Origin: Colwellia sp. M166
GTDB taxonomy: Bacteria > Pseudomonadota > Gammaproteobacteria > Enterobacterales > Alteromonadaceae
Direction of reading: 5' to 3'
NCBI RefSeq assembly: GCF_024585285.1
Contig: NZ_CP040755.1
Coordinates: 1,612,001-1,676,000 of the forward strand
Length of the DNA: 64,000 nucleotides
Shown piece by piece: positions 4,267 through 37,328 of the stretch. Position numbers and translations under genes: made by a program. Positions within the stretch are counted from its first letter, which is position 1. Each line of letters opens with the position of its first letter. The notes below the pieces were generated by a model. The model worked only from the letters and a program-made list of their open reading frames with translations, did no database searches and was not told where the DNA came from.

Positions 4267-7200
4267 GTGCTATTGCTTTTTTTTAAAAATAAGTTGATTT
4301 CTAAATTTTATTTAACCTTTTCCATTTTGGTTATATCAGCTTTACTATCCCTTTCAAGTACAGCTACCGCTGCAGAACACAATATCAATCAGCCTCCCCT
4401 AAAGTTTGAAAGTATTTCAATTGCCGAAGGCTTATCGCAAAGCTATGTTTACGACATAGTACAAGATAAAAACGGTTTCATATGGATCGCCACACAAGAT
4501 GGCTTAAACCGTTATGACGGCAAAAATTTTGTCTACTATCGTCACGATAGTACAAATAGAACTTCAATAGCCGACAATTTTATTCGCAAACTATTTATTG
4601 ATAATAAAAACCTACTCTGGGTTGGTACAAATGCAGGCTTAAGCCGTTACGATGAAACCTTAGATAGTTTTGAAAACTTTTTTCATCAAACTGATGATAG
4701 TAGCTCATTAAAAGACAATGAAATTTGGGATATTTATCAAGATCAGCAAAATAGTATTCTGATCTCGACCAAAACTGGTTTACATAAATATGATGTTGAA
4801 AACAAAAATTTCTCTCAAATAAGAATTCGTGGTTTTAATAATGCCTTAAAAGAAATTAAAACCATATATCAAGATAAGAAAGGTAACTATTGGTTAGGCA
4901 CTTATGATAAGGGGATATTCTTAACCAATAGCGCTATGACGTCTGTGGTATCTTTAAATGCGCAAAATAAGTGGCACCTTAATCTTAACGCTAGTGCACT
5001 TTATGACTTAAAGTTTATTGATAACCAATATTGGTTAGGCACTGATAATGGTTTATTTGTTATTTCACAAGATTACCAAATAACCAAGCATTATATAACA
5101 AGTAATAATGATAGTAGTTTGAATATACTGTCAAATAAAGTGCGTTCGATTGAGCAATTAAATGACTCAGCCGTTTGGTTGGGTACTCTAAACGGTTTGA
5201 ATAGTATCAATATACTCACTGATAAGATCACCTCTTATCAAAGCTCACCACATAAAAATGCCTTATCGTTTGATCTTATATTAAAAGTATACAAAGATAA
5301 CTCAGGTAAAATGTGGATCGGCACTAATGGTGGCGGCATTAACACCTTCAATTCTTTGCAATTAAAGATTAACCACGGTTTATTTAATTATGATGATTCT
5401 GGGCAAGCTGTTTATGCTTTTGCTGAAACTTCAGACGGAACGGTTTGGTTTACAACAGATAACGGACAACTCAATAAAATTGCTTCAAACGGAGAAATTA
5501 GCCAAGCTATTATTAAAAACAATAAGCCAATTTCACATTTATTTGTTGATGCAAAAGATAATTTTTGGTTAAAAACAGAACCTAATAACCCTTCAGAACC
5601 TGGTAATCTATATTATTACCAAACAGATAAAGGCAGCCTGACAGAAAACTATGAATGGCAAGAAAAATCAACAAACAATGACTTTAGTAACTTAATATTG
5701 GCAGACGGTAGATTATGGTTTATCGACGAAGCAAAACAATTTTCTTCATTTCATTTAGGTTCTAATAAATTAGAACAAATCGACGATGATAACCAAACCA
5801 TTTACACTGCAATTAAGTATGATAATAACGATAAATTATGGTTAGCTACAACAGATAATAAAATATTATATTACAGCATATCTTCAAAAAAATTCTCTAA
5901 CATTATCACAAGCATTCCTGCTAATTTGCAATTTGGCAATATATCAAATATTGGTCTATCAAAAGATTGGATTTGGCTTGGTTCAAGAGGACAAGGCATT
6001 GCCCTTTATAATAAAAAAATCAAAACAGTGTCGATAATAAATGAGAGTAACCACTTAAGTAACAACTTTATAGCAGACATTATTGTCGATAACCAACAGA
6101 TAGCTTGGGTATCTACCAACAGAGGAGTGAATGCTGTCAATCCTAATACCAAAGTGGTAAAAGCATTTAACAAAGACCTGTTATTAGATAACAATGAGTT
6201 TATTAGTGATAGTGCTATTTTAACGAAAAACGATACCATTTATTTCGGTGGTATTAATGGTTTTCATTCATTTATCCCGAAAGAATTACTCAGCATAAAG
6301 CAAAAATTATCAGCCCCGTATCTCACAAGTATCTTAGTTGCTAACAAAGAGCTTGCTGTTTCAAGTTTAAAACCAAATCAACCTACATTTCCATTCACTT
6401 TAAGCAGCTCACCTAACGCACTGAAAGTGCTGAATTTAACACACAGCCAATCCCCATTCAGTATTGAGTTTATTACACCTAATGTAAAATTATTAGGGCA
6501 TTTAAAATATCGTTATCGTCTTCTTGAGTTAGAAGAAAATTGGATAGATGCTGGTAAAAATAACCAAAGAGCGACATACACTAACCTAAGTCCTGGTGAT
6601 TATGTTTTTGAAGTGCAAGCACTTGATTTACAGAATAACCAAAAAAGTGCAATAAAATCTCTGAACATTACAATCCTGCCCCCTTGGTGGCTATCTCGTA
6701 GTGCCATATTACTTTACAGCCTTATGGCGCTATTAATCATAACCTACATTCTTCAACAAATGCGCCATAAGCGTCTTTATCATCTACAAATAAAGTTAAG
6801 TGAAGAACGTCTTAAATTATCGCTCTGGGGTAGTGGTGATGAAATGTGGGATTGGAACATTAAGAAAGGTAAAATATACCGCTCTAATATATGGGGAATA
6901 CTGGAATTTCCACAAGACGGTAAACGCAATGTCGGTGCCGATCAAACCAATATTCATCAACATGATATCCCAAGAGTTAGAGAAGCGCTAAATCAACATT
7001 TTGAAGATAGTAGCCAACATTTCGAAGCTACCTATCGCGTAAAAGACAAAGACGATAAATGGATTTGGGTACTCGATCGCGGCAAAATTGTTGAGCGCGA
7101 TGAAAAAGACGTTCCAAGTCGAATGACAGGTACCTTAAAAGATATTAGTCAAATTAAGCGTGCCGATGAGCGTTTAAAGCTTTTTGCCAAATGCATTGAG

Positions 7201-8853
7201 AACATTTCCGACGCGATTGTAATTTATGATCGCAAATTCACTGTCGTCGATGTCAATAAAGCATTTCAGCGCATCACAGGAAAGAATAAACTACAAATGC
7301 GCGGCACTCAGCTTAAATTTGAACAATACCCAGATAGTTTTAGCCAGAACATTAAAAAGCACTTAATTACCAAAGGTAACTGGCACGGTGAAATAGAAAA
7401 CTTACGTGATAATGGTGCGCTCTATTTAACCGATTTAAATATCGATATTATTCGTGATGAAGACGGCAATATCTCACACTTTGTTGGTGTGTTTTCTGAT
7501 ATTACCAAACGTAAGCAAACAGAAGCTGAATTAAGAAAACTTGCCAACTCAGATACATTAACAGGACTACCTAATCGCTCATACTTTCAAGCCAATCTAC
7601 AACGATTAGTAAAAAATAAAATTCACCATGCTTTATTAGTTTTTGACTTGGATAACTTTAAAAAAGTCAATGATTCTCTAGGCCATGAAGCAGGCGATGT
7701 TCTATTATGCAAGGTTGCTGAGCGCATTAGGGGATTAGGGCGAAATCAAGACTCTGTTTATCGTTTAGGGGGAGATGAGTTCAGTTTAATTATCGAAGAT
7801 ACCAACGATATTCATACCATCACCAGTATTGCTAAAGAAGTATTAAAATCAATTGCTCTGCCGCTGAGGCTGAAGAGCCAAGAAATAGTCCTTTATAGTA
7901 GCATAGGTATCGTGCTTTACCCTGAAGACGGTACAAACCCACAAGAACTACTTAAAAATGCTGATACGGCGATGTATCATGCGAAAAATGCTGGAGGTAA
8001 TAAGTATCAATTTTTCAGCGACTCGATGAACAAAGCTGCCGTTAAGCGTTTACAAATCGAGAGTCTTATTCGCCATGGCCTCAAAGAAGATTTCTTTTCC
8101 GTGTTCTATCAACCCAAAATTGAAATCGCAACCGGAAAAATAGCCGGTATGGAAGCACTTGTTCGCTTTGAAACCCCAGGTAAAGGTATTATTAGTCCAG
8201 CGATTTTTATTCCAGTTTCAGAAGAAACAGGTCAAATTATTGATATTGGTGAAGTGGTATTACGTAAAGCTTGCTTTGCGACTAAGAAATGGGTTGATGC
8301 TGGACTTTTTGAAGGTCGAATTGCCGTTAACTTATCGGCAGTTCAGTTTACTCAACCTAACCTAGTCGCCATGATCGCGAGTATTTTAAAAGAAAGTAAA
8401 CTAGCGGCCAAATACCTTGAATTAGAAATAACAGAAGGTACGGTAATGGATTCACCACAAAAAGCGATTGATACCATGTTGCAAATTCGTGCGATGGGCA
8501 TCCATTTATCGTTAGATGATTTTGGTACTGGTTATTCTTCACTCGCTTATTTGAAAAAATTCCCTCTCAATACCCTAAAAATTGACAAGGCTTTTGTTGA
8601 TGACATTGAAACCTCAGAGAAAGGCCGAAACATGGTGGCAACCATCGTCACTATCGCGCACAACTTAGGCATGGCAGTGGTAGCAGAAGGTGTTGAAACC
8701 AATCAACAATTAAGCTTTTTGTCTGGCTTACGTTGCGAACAATTGCAAGGTTACTTGTATAGTAAGCCATTACCTGAAAATGACTTTCAAAAATACTTAT
8801 TATCCTTTCAGATCACCAACAAATCGACATCATTTAGTAAAAATACCATTTAG
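4267..8853 (+). CDS. Beta-propeller sensor / PAS-PAS-GGDEF-EAL cyclic-di-GMP protein
   Basis: A 1528-residue one-protein signalling system. A signal peptide (about 1-35) is followed by a periplasmic two-component-regulator propeller region (about 45-700, many W(I/V/L)GT..GL.RYD repeats), a Y_Y_Y domain (about 733-787), a membrane helix (about 812-832), two PAS domains (843-962 and 968-1082), GGDEF (1092-1252) and EAL (1270-1510). Both catalytic signatures are intact: G1168-G-D-E-F and E1296-A-L with D1417-D-F-G-T-G. The protein could therefore make and degrade cyclic di-GMP. Propeller-Y_Y_Y sensors often sense sugars or surface polymers; the ligand here is unknown. The start is GTG. Confidence 0.9.
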   Translation: MLLLFFKNKLISKFYLTFSILVISALLSLSSTATAAEHNINQPPLKFESISIAEGLSQSYVYDIVQDKNGFIWIATQDGLNRYDGKNFVYYRHDSTNRTSIADNFIRKLFIDNKNLLWVGTNAGLSRYDETLDSFENFFHQTDDSSSLKDNEIWDIYQDQQNSILISTKTGLHKYDVENKNFSQIRIRGFNNALKEIKTIYQDKKGNYWLGTYDKGIFLTNSAMTSVVSLNAQNKWHLNLNASALYDLKFIDNQYWLGTDNGLFVISQDYQITKHYITSNNDSSLNILSNKVRSIEQLNDSAVWLGTLNGLNSINILTDKITSYQSSPHKNALSFDLILKVYKDNSGKMWIGTNGGGINTFNSLQLKINHGLFNYDDSGQAVYAFAETSDGTVWFTTDNGQLNKIASNGEISQAIIKNNKPISHLFVDAKDNFWLKTEPNNPSEPGNLYYYQTDKGSLTENYEWQEKSTNNDFSNLILADGRLWFIDEAKQFSSFHLGSNKLEQIDDDNQTIYTAIKYDNNDKLWLATTDNKILYYSISSKKFSNIITSIPANLQFGNISNIGLSKDWIWLGSRGQGIALYNKKIKTVSIINESNHLSNNFIADIIVDNQQIAWVSTNRGVNAVNPNTKVVKAFNKDLLLDNNEFISDSAILTKNDTIYFGGINGFHSFIPKELLSIKQKLSAPYLTSILVANKELAVSSLKPNQPTFPFTLSSSPNALKVLNLTHSQSPFSIEFITPNVKLLGHLKYRYRLLELEENWIDAGKNNQRATYTNLSPGDYVFEVQALDLQNNQKSAIKSLNITILPPWWLSRSAILLYSLMALLIITYILQQMRHKRLYHLQIKLSEERLKLSLWGSGDEMWDWNIKKGKIYRSNIWGILEFPQDGKRNVGADQTNIHQHDIPRVREALNQHFEDSSQHFEATYRVKDKDDKWIWVLDRGKIVERDEKDVPSRMTGTLKDISQIKRADERLKLFAKCIENISDAIVIYDRKFTVVDVNKAFQRITGKNKLQMRGTQLKFEQYPDSFSQNIKKHLITKGNWHGEIENLRDNGALYLTDLNIDIIRDEDGNISHFVGVFSDITKRKQTEAELRKLANSDTLTGLPNRSYFQANLQRLVKNKIHHALLVFDLDNFKKVNDSLGHEAGDVLLCKVAERIRGLGRNQDSVYRLGGDEFSLIIEDTNDIHTITSIAKEVLKSIALPLRLKSQEIVLYSSIGIVLYPEDGTNPQELLKNADTAMYHAKNAGGNKYQFFSDSMNKAAVKRLQIESLIRHGLKEDFFSVFYQPKIEIATGKIAGMEALVRFETPGKGIISPAIFIPVSEETGQIIDIGEVVLRKACFATKKWVDAGLFEGRIAVNLSAVQFTQPNLVAMIASILKESKLAAKYLELEITEGTVMDSPQKAIDTMLQIRAMGIHLSLDDFGTGYSSLAYLKKFPLNTLKIDKAFVDDIETSEKGRNMVATIVTIAHNLGMAVVAEGVETNQQLSFLSGLRCEQLQGYLYSKPLPENDFQKYLLSFQITNKSTSFSKNTI

Positions 8854-8990
8854 TGTCGACTTTATGACACTAAATATTCTGCATAAATAATCCATTAAGC
8901 GCCTTATAAACAAAGGCCTTTCATTAGTGGCACATTTCTCGCTTATACCTTATTGAATTTCAATTAACTTTAATAATAATAAGGAATAAC

Positions 8991-9302
8991 ATGCTTAGTT
9001 CAATCATTCTTTCTTTCGCAATGTCTGCGACACCTACTACTGAAATCACCAATGAAGCCTTTATCGTTGAGGAAGTTGGCACAAAGCGTAGTCAAGTAAG
9101 AATTGGCACTAAACGTAGCCAAGTTCGTATCAATACTCAAGAGCTCACAGTAGCAGAAATTGGAACCAAACGCAGCCAAGTAAGAATTGGCACTAAACGT
9201 AGCCAAGTTCGCATCAACAGCCAAGAATTAGCAGTCGAAGAAGTTGGAACCAAACGCAGTCAAGTAAGAATTGGTACTAAACGTAGTCAAGTTCGTATCT
9301 AG
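8991..9302 (+). CDS. Small protein with six identical GTKRSQVRI repeats, unrecognised
   Basis: A 103-residue protein I do not recognise. After a mildly hydrophobic N-terminus (about 1-16) and a short acidic stretch come three 28-residue modules. Each has two tandem GTKRSQVRI nonapeptides followed by an acidic linker (NTQELTVAEI, NSQELAVEEV); the last module ends on the second nonapeptide. Module starts at 9078, 9162 and 9246 give an exact 84-bp period. All differences between the six DNA copies are synonymous (for example aga/cgt, att/atc, ggc/gga/ggt), so the frame is really translated and selected. AAGGA lies upstream of the ATG. The repeats are very basic with dibasic KR sites and the linkers acidic. 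No function is proposed as established. Confidence 0.8.
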   Translation: MLSSIILSFAMSATPTTEITNEAFIVEEVGTKRSQVRIGTKRSQVRINTQELTVAEIGTKRSQVRIGTKRSQVRINSQELAVEEVGTKRSQVRIGTKRSQVRI

Positions 9303-9310
9303 GAGCGTTT

Positions 9311-9415
9311 ATGATCAACTTAATCAAATCATTATTTGTGAACAAAGCGACAGAAAACGCGATTGCAGCAGGTATTGAAATTAAAGAAATGCCTGCCAGT
9401 ACTTGGTGGAGTTAA
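9311..9415 (+). CDS. 34-residue peptide coupled to the repeat-protein gene
   Basis: A very short open frame whose product starts MINLIKSLFVNK and ends MPASTWWS. The stop codon TAG of the preceding repeat protein is part of the TAGGAG ribosome site of this frame, and only eight bases separate the two, so translation is probably coupled. It has an amphipathic, lysine-containing N-terminus and a hydrophobic WWS tail. Roles such as a ribosomally made peptide precursor or partner of the repeat protein are guesses. Two stem-loops follow (9412-9433 and 9442-9481), consistent with the end of a two-gene transcript. Confidence 0.6.
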   Translation: MINLIKSLFVNKATENAIAAGIEIKEMPASTWWS

Positions 9416-9481
9416 GCGTTAAGAAGCGCTTAACAGGCAATAAATAGACACTTCGCGACAAGGAAGTTAGCGTGTTTATTT
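9412..9481 (+). terminator. Two consecutive stem-loops after the small-peptide genes
   Basis: The first hairpin pairs TTAAGCG with CGCTTAA (loop of 8) and starts inside the stop codon of the 34-residue peptide. The second pairs AAATAGACAC with GTGTTTATTT (one G-T wobble) and contains an inner ACTTC/GAAGT stem. No strong T-run follows beyond TTTATTT, so termination or mRNA 3'-end protection is inferred. Confidence 0.45.
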
Positions 9482-9524
9482 GAACTTTAATCGTTACGTG
9501 CAAATAAATCAGGAGTAGTTAAAA

Positions 9525-9728
9525 TTATGCCGAAAATAATAAACAGTCAAAACCAAAGCGCTGATATGTTTTTAAACGTTTATTAATACAAAACATTGGC
9601 CAAATAAAAGGGCCAAACATCAAACCAGCCATTGCCCATCGTTTAGCACCCAAGCCACTACTTACCGCCTGACAATAAAAAAATATAGAAAAGACAATAC
9701 CTAATACGGTTATCAGTAACAAAAACAC
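9525..9728 (-). CDS. Small predicted inner-membrane protein
   Basis: A 67-residue hypothetical protein, mostly membrane-embedded: one helix at about 1-25 and a second hydrophobic stretch at about 32-47. Between them lies the motif KRWAMAGLMFGPFIWPMF, which resembles small uncharacterised proteins of marine gammaproteobacteria. The start is GTG with AGGT eight bases upstream. It is convergent with the repeat-peptide genes and separated from fadJ by the terminator at 9817-9845. Function unknown. Confidence 0.5.
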   Translation of the reverse strand: MFLLLITVLGIVFSIFFYCQAVSSGLGAKRWAMAGLMFGPFIWPMFCINKRLKTYQRFGFDCLLFSA

Positions 9729-31454: not shown

Positions 31455-31808
31455 TTAGCTATCAGTAAAAGAAAGTTATCAGTTTGGAGCTGTCAGTAAA
31501 AGATAGCTATCAGTTAAAAGCTGTCAGCTGTCAGCTAAAACAAGTAAAACCAAACACCACACTCTTGGTTAGGCGCTTGGTTTTGCTTTTACTGAAAGCT
31601 AAAAACTAATAGCTTACAGCTAAGTTCTTAGTTTGAAGCTATCAGCTAAAACAAGTAAAACCAAACACCACACTCTTGGTTAGGCGCTTGGTTTTGCTTT
31701 TACTGAAAGCTTAAAACTGACAGCTTACAGCTATTTTTTGGTTTTACTGAAAGCTCAAAACTGAAAGCTTACAGCTATTTTTTGGTTTTACTGAAAGCTT
31801 GCAGCTTT
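31455..31808. repeat. CTGANAGCT repeat spacer 1 (DHH gene - cysC)
   Basis: The 353-bp gap is filled by the repeat family. Left part: AGCTATCAG / AGCTGTCAG forms with TAAAA tails. Right part: the complementary TTTTACTGAAAGCT forms. A 70-bp segment occurs twice without change (31531-31600 and 31642-31711), each with an A arm, a core of about 25 bp and a B arm that can fold back. Further copies of GGTTTTACTGAAAGCT follow at 31739 and 31784. The right edge runs into the end of cysC. Confidence 0.9.
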
Positions 31809-32447: not shown

Positions 32448-32940
32448 TTGTCAGTTCAAAGCTTTCAGTAAACCACAAAACAAGCTCCCAACTAGTCTTT
32501 ATTTTTAACTGACAGCTGACAACTTCAAACTTTCTCTACTTGTTTTTATTGCAAGCTGACAGCTTCAAACTTTCTCTTACTTGTTTTTACTGCAAGCTGA
32601 TAGCTTCAAACTTTCTCTACTTGTTTTTACTGACAGCTGATAGCTTCAAACTTTCTCTTACTTGTTTTTACTGACAGCTGAAAACTTCAAACTTTCTCTT
32701 ACTTGTTTTTACTGCAAGCTGACAACTTCAAACTTTCTCTTACTTGTTTTTACTGACAGCTGACAGCTTCAAACTTTCTCTTACTTGTTTTTACTGCAAG
32801 CTGATAGCTTCAAACTTTCTCTTACTTGTTTTTACTGATAGCTGACAGCTTCAAACTTTCTCTTACTTGTTTTTACTGATAGCTGACAGCTTCAAACTTT
32901 CTCTTACTTGTTTTTACTGAAAGCTCAAAACTTATCGCTT
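32448..32940. repeat. CTGANAGCT repeat spacer 2 with ten 41-bp tandem copies (cysC - permease)
   Basis: About 490 bp. A short A arm (32448-32485) is followed by ten tandem copies of a 40-41-bp unit at about 32515-32932: CTGACAGCTGACAGCTTC, then AAACTTTCTCTTACTTG, then TTTTTA. The CTTCAAACTTTCTCT part recurs at about 32523, 32563, 32604, 32644, 32685, 32726, 32767, 32808, 32849 and 32890. The units vary mainly at the N of CTGANAGCT and in CTCTTACT/CTCTACT. No gene lies in this 539-bp gap. Confidence 0.93.
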
Positions 32941-34694: not shown

Positions 34695-34933
34695 ACAGCT
34701 GTAAGCCTTCAATAAAACACACAAAATATAGCTGTAAGCTTTCAGTTTTAAGCTGTCAGTAAAAATCAAAAACAAGCTCAAAACAAGTCTTTTGTCTTTA
34801 ACTGACAGCTGAGAGCTTAAAACTTATAGCTGTAAGCTTTCAGTTTTAAGCTCTCAGTAAAATCAAAAACAAATTCGAAACGAGTCTCTTGTCTTTAACT
34901 GATAGCTGATAGCTGCTCTTAACTGACAGCTAT
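34695..34933. repeat. CTGANAGCT repeat spacer 3, two 98-bp units (permease - cysN)
   Basis: Two imperfect tandem units starting at about 34727 and 34825 (98-bp period). Each reads TATAGCTGTAAGCTTTCAG, AAGCTNTCAGTAAAA, an A-rich core, then TCTTTAACTGANAGCTGA. Each unit contains the A form on the left and the B form on the right and can fold back. The variant CTGAGAGCT occurs here. Confidence 0.88.
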
Positions 34934-36853: not shown

Positions 36854-36875
36854 AACAAATCCTTGTTAAGACAAA

Positions 36876-37328
36876 GCTAACAGCTGTCAGTTTAAAGCTA
36901 TCAGTAAAACCTAAAAACATAGCTATAAGCTGTCAGTTTTAAGCTTTCAGTAAAACCTAAAAACATAGCTATAAGCTGTCAGTTTTAAGCTTTCAGTAAA
37001 ACCTATAAACATAGCTATAAGCTGTCAGTTTTAAGCTTTCAGTAAAACCTAAAGACATAGCTATAAGCTGTCAGTTTTAAGCTTTCAGTAAAACCTAAAA
37101 ACATAGCTATAAGCTGTCAGTTTTAAGCTGTCAGTAAAACCTATAAACATAGCTATAAGCTGTCAGTAAAACCTAAACCATCAGTATGGCACTTGTTTTT
37201 ACTGATAGCTGATAGCTTCAAACTTTAAATTTTAAACTTTCTTTTCCTTGTTTTTACTGAAAGCTGATAGCTTCAAACTTTAAACTTTCTTTTCCTTGTT
37301 TTTACTGATAGCTGATAGCTTCAAACTT
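36876..37328. repeat. CTGANAGCT repeat spacer 5 with 46-bp tandem copies (S23-like gene - cysD)
   Basis: A arms: five full tandem units and a partial one of 46 bp start at 36921, 36967, 37013, 37059, 37105 and 37151 (AGCTATAAGCTGTCAG, TTTTAAGCTTTCAG, then TAAAACCTAAAAACAT). A core with CCATCAGTATGGCACTTG follows at about 37180, then two B-arm units (GTTTTTACTGATAGCTGA with a TTCAAACTTTAAA tail). The A arms are expanded here, the B arms in spacer 2. No gene lies in this 505-bp gap. Confidence 0.93.

Follow-up and report, generated by a model that had tools for sequence, protein, structure and literature searches.

A sixfold repeat-peptide gene beside a cyclic-di-GMP sensor gene in Colwellia: a candidate precursor of a species-specific peptide signal

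Peptide signals passed from cell to cell belong mostly to Gram-positive bacteria and eukaryotes. What, then, does a gene do in the gammaproteobacterium Colwellia sp. M166 that spells out the nonapeptide GTKRSQVRI six times within 103 amino acids? The gene, here called ORF1, lies in a stretch of 64,000 nucleotides (contig NZ_CP040755.1, positions 1,612,001 to 1,676,000), which we refer to as the window; the source genome holds one such locus, and the closest named relative found is Cognaticolwellia aestuarii. A preliminary description of the DNA had looked at this gene by itself, and that view proved too narrow: ORF1 is part of a two-ORF cassette, stands behind a sigma-54 type box and beside the gene of a beta-propeller GGDEF-EAL sensor (c0), has cores that differ between species, and has relatives that carry a single core.

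Anatomy of the cassette

The features of the locus are the following.

4267..8853, plus strand: c0, 1528 aa, Reg_prop beta-propeller and Y_Y_Y, then PAS-PAS-GGDEF-EAL (Pfam); candidate receptor
8849..8874, no strand assigned: palindrome TTTAGTGTC-N8-GACACTAAA, overlapping the c0 stop (read from the sequence); possible activator site or terminator
8928..8942, plus strand: sigma-54 (-24/-12) type box TGGCAC-N5-TCGC, 63 nt 5' of the ATG (0 of 100 shuffles as good)
8991..9302, plus strand: ORF1, putative multicopy peptide precursor, 103 aa (ORF reading, alignment, homologues, within-array selection)
8991..9077, plus strand: N-terminal leader of ORF1, hydrophobic start MLSSIILSFAMSATP (alignment, hydropathy, charge)
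9078..9131, plus strand: core copies 1 (9078-9104) and 2 (9105-9131) (copy comparison)
9132..9161, plus strand: spacer NTQELTVAEI (translation)
9162..9215, plus strand: core copies 3 (9162-9188) and 4 (9189-9215) (copy comparison)
9216..9245, plus strand: spacer NSQELAVEEV (translation)
9246..9299, plus strand: core copies 5 (9246-9272) and 6 (9273-9299), copy 6 being the C-terminus directly before the stop
9311..9415, plus strand: ORF2, 34 aa, MINLIKSLF...IEIKEMPASTWWS (ORF reading, profile matches in relatives)
9441..9482, plus strand: hairpin 3' of ORF2, possible transcript end (-10.8 kcal/mol, z -1.74, 9 of 200 shuffles as good)

ORF1 thus consists of a leader of 29 residues and six GTKRSQVRI units set as three pairs, with two ten-residue spacers between them. 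The copies fall into two codon classes: odd copies differ from one another at 1-5 bases and even copies at 1-3, odd from even at 7-8, and TRF finds a period of 84 bp, which bears out the earlier proposal of growth by 84-bp doublets in this genome. The alternation of basic units with acidic linkers, also pointed out before, stands as read in the window but is not general, as several arrays in relatives are free of linkers and C-termini are acidic in one family (f15). Hydrophobic and uncharged, the window leader contains neither K nor R, and relatives have MLKAYAVALVLSTSAPV-like or MIKGIIALSILSAFSSVVFA-like N-termini at this position; it is probably an export signal without basic residues, by which the window protein would leave the cytoplasm. 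An AlphaFold model of ORF1, computed on a shallow alignment of 18 sequences, shows no fold (pLDDT 44.8), which would suit a precursor and tells against a rigid solenoid; we reject a beta-solenoid on this ground, though weakly given that alignment. A function of the array at the RNA level was set aside as well, in view of the free codon variation and the lack of an Rfam match.

ORF2 begins eight bases past the ORF1 stop, which itself sits inside the Shine-Dalgarno-like TAGGAG of ORF2. Its relatives are 30-39 aa long and usually, not always, end in WW and one more residue; ORF2 would probably serve as a small partner, either for processing or for association with the membrane. In genus g52 (G139, G178, G194, G210, G224, G237, G249, G261) two adjacent ORF2 matches follow one array. 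The hairpin after ORF2 has no Rfam match. Further 3' lie a small ORF and then genes with fadJ and fadI domains; this ORF (9525-9728, minus strand) is hydrophobic, belongs to no Pfam family and by eye resembles a small ORF at the same position in five other genera (cluster 13).

The box upstream of ORF1 follows the -24/-12 consensus of sigma-54 promoters. Across cassettes it typically reads TTGGCAC/T-N5-NNGC, with the start of ORF1 about 61 nt further on, and at most 5 of 100 shuffles are as good in 72 of 73 cassettes, the remaining one (L017) also having a box; L049, whose upstream sequence is too short, was left out of the count. Under a single cut-off the box passes in 71 of 73 cassettes and in 9 of 290 controls, namely the sequences upstream of the remaining ORFs of these loci that have 200 aa or more. 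Such a box at a fixed distance marks ORF1 as a predicted sigma-54-dependent gene. Two further elements lie upstream of the box. The palindrome at 8849..8874 is marked terminator-like on the minus strand, and by eye similar GTC..GAC pairs stand upstream in many relatives; an activator-site regulon was rejected, since the genome count of the pattern GTCRANTTTNTGRC is not above that of its reversed control. An inverted repeat, GCCTTATAAACAAAGGC (8901-8917), lies directly 5' of the box, with similar ones by eye in many relatives, and may be a c0 terminator or a regulator site.

Elsewhere in the window, four regions (31456-31800, 32503-32925, 34727-34914, 36871-37328) hold tandem arrays of 17-111 bp units with a AGCTGTCAGTTTTAAGCTTTCAGTAAAA-like sequence in common, among them 41 bp x 10.4 and 46 bp x 6.5 (TRF).

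The peptide gene in relatives

A search of related genomes found homologues, among them that of a close relative (P0002) with four core copies, the first carrying a G-to-D change; P0015, which has an odd C-terminus, was left out of alignment A1. Within the family, an ORF1 profile matched 49 of 295 genomes (13 of 52 genera) and an ORF2 profile 78 of 295 (19 of 52 genera), two of the latter (G058, G107) having no cassette on reading. Of 32 stretches at further ORF2 matches, 25 have an upstream ORF1, 4 run into a contig edge and 3 lack a cassette, one of these (G412) being a chance ORF2 match within a long protein. Those 25 ORF1 genes comprise 22 arrays and, in three g13 genomes, single cores; the ORF1 array profile overlooks genomes with an altered core.

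Where genera of the family (f1) have no ORF2, the same place holds a sigma-54-type box and an ORF of 44-80 aa, mostly beginning MLKAYAVALVLSTSAPV..., usually with one C-terminal core (WKPGSVRL, RWKPIRF, ARKPGKIRI) and in most followed by what by eye is a terminator-like hairpin and T run. A peptide ORF stands beside c0 in 28 of 32 such genomes with full-length c0 in place, and none was seen in four g3 genomes with full-length c0. The 32 derive from 40 f1 flanks, less L160 and L162 (non-orthologous c0), L163 (no c0 flank), L144 (ORF2-type), L164-L166 (c0 elsewhere or contig end) and L145, from G283, where no peptide was seen and the c0 frame is 830 aa only. The N-termini of MLK-type members look by eye like signal peptides. 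Arrays occur among the 28 as well, with three copies each in L174 and L179, two each in L158 and L170, and five in L159; single-core congeners exist for L170 (g5), L174 (g9) and L179 (g23), and other arrays are those of g19 and g31. By this comparison of sequences, arrays arose repeatedly.

Outside this family, c0 was matched in 63 genomes of the order. Among 40 flanks hand-picked from these, 31 have a peptide ORF at c0 and 9 have none: the counts are 17 of 18 in the Shewanella-like genus g57 of family f6, 4 of 4 in f20, 4 of 4 in f16, 5 of 5 in f15, 1 of 6 in f7 and 0 of 3 in others. The peptide ORF is therefore genetically linked to the candidate receptor gene. The f6 peptides are heptamers of the form [GAR]xPx[VI][KR][FVLWY], in up to 30 copies, with Ala mostly just before the core, and all 16 arrays read differ (L205, a single core, and L212, at a contig end, stand outside the 16; the start codon is not resolved in L209 and L211). 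One of these precursors matches Shewanella frigidimarina in a database search, and a search with a second gave no match. N-termini in f6, f16 and f7 are signal-peptide-like by eye. The precursor checked in f16 adjoins AnmK, not fadJ, and that of f7 adjoins YccF, with no sigma-54 box seen; since c0 and the peptide stay adjacent there without fadJ-type neighbours, the pairing outlives the surrounding gene order. In f15 (L199, L200, L219, L220, L221) ORF1 is short and accompanied by ORF2, four of the five lack a repeated core, and the C-termini are mostly acidic (IEDQVGL twice in L219, IDDQVEM, TDEEVGI), opposite in charge sign to the rest.

Selection within arrays and divergence between species

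That the six window copies differ only synonymously, and that this speaks of selection on the peptide, had been claimed from the letters of the sequence, and both points hold. Among the 27 nucleotide columns of the core 9 vary, which requires at least 12 changes, none of them altering an amino acid; if single-base changes fell at random in these codons, each would be silent with a probability of 0.241, and 12 silent changes out of 12 have p ~4e-8, or ~4e-6 when corrected for 95 possible windows. Across 69 own-family arrays (drawn from 74 cassettes, of which G013, G095, G124, G235 and G274 have no exact repeat), 365 of 374 copies are the same as the unit chosen for the array, with pooled pS 0.328 and pN 0.011. 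This count chooses its unit by identity, and it was therefore redone with the core preset as the last seven residues and at most three mismatches allowed, which excludes 21 of the 74 cassettes: in the 53 arrays left, 287 of 298 copies are identical and core pN/pS is 0.042.

Might recombination by itself have homogenised the repeat, so that identity reflects recent duplication and no selection? Copy number does vary, and some arrays have low pS (G214 0.055, G240 0.095, G003 0); G214, for one, is recent. In 11 of the 69 arrays, however, pS exceeds 0.6 (0.739 in the window) while the protein is near-perfectly identical, and in the sister genomes G133 and G172 the copies stand in register and retain their copy-by-copy orthology. 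Recombination would moreover treat core and spacer alike, and in the 37 arrays with comparable spacers pN/pS is 0.041 in the core and 0.233 in the spacer, about 6-fold apart, which points to selection. The contrast is about 14-fold in the f6 arrays (0.015 in the core, 0.206 in the tail), where variation within arrays is 0-1.4% per position; the motif used to find these cores presets positions 3, 5 and 6 of 7 and leaves positions 1, 2, 4 and 7 free. Silent-site divergence and the contrast of core and spacer exclude homogenisation by recombination alone, which we regard as barely credible, and on these substitution patterns selection acts on the core peptide within arrays.

Between species the core is not kept. 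Besides GTKRSQVRI we read GTKRTQVRI, GTRPGTVRI, GDKRGSIRI, GKSHGKVRI, SAKRGSRRL, GDNRIRIQP and others, and a few pairs of close relatives have a core in common (G091/G252; G133/G172); uniform within an array and divergent between species, the core shows this contrast on one genome per species. For the S-to-T switch that separates the window from G182, copy-by-copy comparison finds copies that are not clearly orthologous. Copy number ranges from 2 to 30 across arrays, linkers between units are variable or, in several arrays, absent, 56 of 69 arrays have repeated units of net charge +2 or +3, and many cores end strand-like, in [VI][RK] and an aliphatic or aromatic residue.

The neighbouring sensor and the readings of the locus

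All the domains of a Reg_prop-GGDEF-EAL sensor (Reg_prop, Y_Y_Y, PAS, GGDEF, EAL) are found in c0, whose propeller would lie in the periplasm. When its N-terminal 811 aa were searched, the best match among solved chains was 4a2l, a two-component sensor (E=1.5e-84); Reg_prop/Y_Y_Y sensors of this type share the sensor domain with c0, which differs from them in its PAS-PAS-GGDEF-EAL output and in the peptide gene at its flank. All 55 c0 proteins read contain the GGDEF motif and 52 of them EALxRF, and in c0 from six families Reg_prop, PAS, GGDEF and EAL occur in 6 of 6 and Y_Y_Y in 5 of 6. Over 52 genomes the mean distance is 0.637 in the sensor half versus 0.232 in the cytoplasmic half, and a divergent sensor half is what a ligand-specific receptor might show. 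In partial Mantel tests, core distance goes with the distance of the c0 sensor at 0.348 (p 0.004), but a fast neighbour with no relation to it scores nearly as high, 0.291 (p 0.006), and two slower ones reach p ~0.04, so that the correlation does not single out c0. The gene order of the locus is common to 12-13 of 13 genera among 40 loci compared and spans about 19 kb in f1, further conserved neighbours being what we take to be MoxR and insulinase-like proteins. In G281 (L046) and G292 (L070) the cassette still adjoins the fadJ-type gene, with c0 elsewhere in the genome. No protease, exporter or modifying enzyme was recognised among the neighbours conserved across genera, and the nearby modifying enzyme that would mark a ribosomally made, modified peptide (RiPP) is thus missing from this set.

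The earlier statement that no family was known for the repeat agrees with the scans. ORF1 proteins from the window, five P relatives and seven other-family genomes gave sub-threshold Pfam/NCBIfam matches only, three ORF2 proteins gave none, and ORF1 has no sequence match among solved structures. Pfam PF27509 is precomputed on two relatives (P0004, P0005), so the sequence family may already be catalogued. A likeness of the VRIG stretch to CsrA, seen as a sub-threshold Pfam match in P0005, was discarded, as cores of other genera are unlike CsrA. The matches listed in the open literature, including PMC7439477 and PMC3409153, gave no account of this peptide family, most subscription papers and bioRxiv preprints lying outside that scope. 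By descent, then, ORF1 appears as a member of no family that could be tested, PF27509 being outside the models compared.

In its working principle ORF1 would, by analogy, resemble the alpha-factor precursors of yeast, and the likeness to multicopy peptide precursors drawn in the preliminary description is supported: several identical short units follow a leader, as in the precursor of a multicopy peptide pheromone. Yeast alpha-factor precursors have a leader and spacers. MFalpha1 carries several repeats of the mature signal in one precursor, their number varying between isolates (PMC5850478). Like MFalpha1 and other multicopy eukaryotic precursors, ORF1 puts repeated signal units into one chain; unlike MFalpha1 it is bacterial, has a sigma-54 box, shows no Kex2-type sites and no homology, and its candidate receptor is a c-di-GMP enzyme and not a GPCR. 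Multicore RiPP precursors, known among graspetides and for thiovarsolin and, in fungi, as Kex2-processed repeat proteins, likewise join a leader to repeated cores, but here no modifying enzyme stands among the conserved neighbours, and the cores are identical within and different between species. The autoinducing peptides of the Gram-positive Agr and Com systems are single-copy and act on histidine kinases or cytosolic receptors; a short species-specific peptide encoded beside a membrane sensor gene is what they have in common with ORF1 and c0, while here there are many copies and a GGDEF-EAL sensor.

We read ORF1, with belief and doubt about evenly matched, as the precursor of an exported, multicopy, species-specific peptide signal that is driven by sigma-54 and sensed by c0, which would alter c-di-GMP. 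The sigma-54 promoter would switch the cassette on, the leader would route the chain into the periplasm or out of the cell, and a protease would release the units, or else the multivalent chain would act whole; the peptide would then be bound in the periplasm by the beta-propeller of the adjacent c0, a domain that evolves fast, and on this recognition c0 would alter cyclic-di-GMP. What we infer here is that the window protein is exported and cleaved, along with the receptor and the response.

An array that stays uncut might instead act in the periplasm or at the surface as a repeat protein, structural or multivalent, with many motif copies binding a fixed partner. Tandem units in 2-30 copies and cores with strand-like ends would suit this, and yet relatives with a single core sit in the same place, every Shewanella-like array read has a core of its own, linkers vary or are absent, and no confident fold appears on the shallow alignment; we think it unlikely. 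The conserved gene order of f1 and the persistence of c0 without a peptide in g3 could also mean that the linkage is inherited gene order, and that the peptide works at the inner membrane or periplasm independently of c0, for example as a regulator of an envelope stress pathway or of a protease; the c0-peptide adjacency that survives in f16 and f7 without adjoining fadJ-type genes speaks against this, and we consider it quite improbable. Slightly more improbable still is a peptide of competition, bacteriocin-like or modified with several identical cores, with ORF2 as an immunity or accessory peptide. It would account for the mostly cationic units and the small partner ORF, and multicore modified peptides do exist; against it stand the neighbourhood without recognised modifying enzyme, exporter or protease, the single fixed chromosomal place, not patchy, in most genomes read, the acidic C-termini of f15, and the MLK-type single-core genomes, in which ORF2 was not seen.

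If the signal reading of ORF1 is extended to the whole group, marine Gammaproteobacteria from several families of the order, Colwellia-like and Shewanella-like ones among them, would signal by multicopy, species-specific, unmodified peptides much as yeast pheromone and neuropeptide precursors do, switched by sigma-54, with a beta-propeller receptor setting c-di-GMP and a core that evolves like a mating pheromone; this is a tentative proposal, which we hold to be rather more doubtful than sound. Whether or not the guess at the receptor is wrong, a peptide that is uniform within and different between species and varies only silently still calls for explanation. If the proposal is true, many marine bacteria, the Shewanella-like ones included, would have a private peptide language, with up to 30 identical peptides encoded beside a c-di-GMP sensor. 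Sensors of a class whose ligands are unknown would gain a candidate ligand, and the receptor-ligand pairs would form a natural series in which to study how specificity changes.
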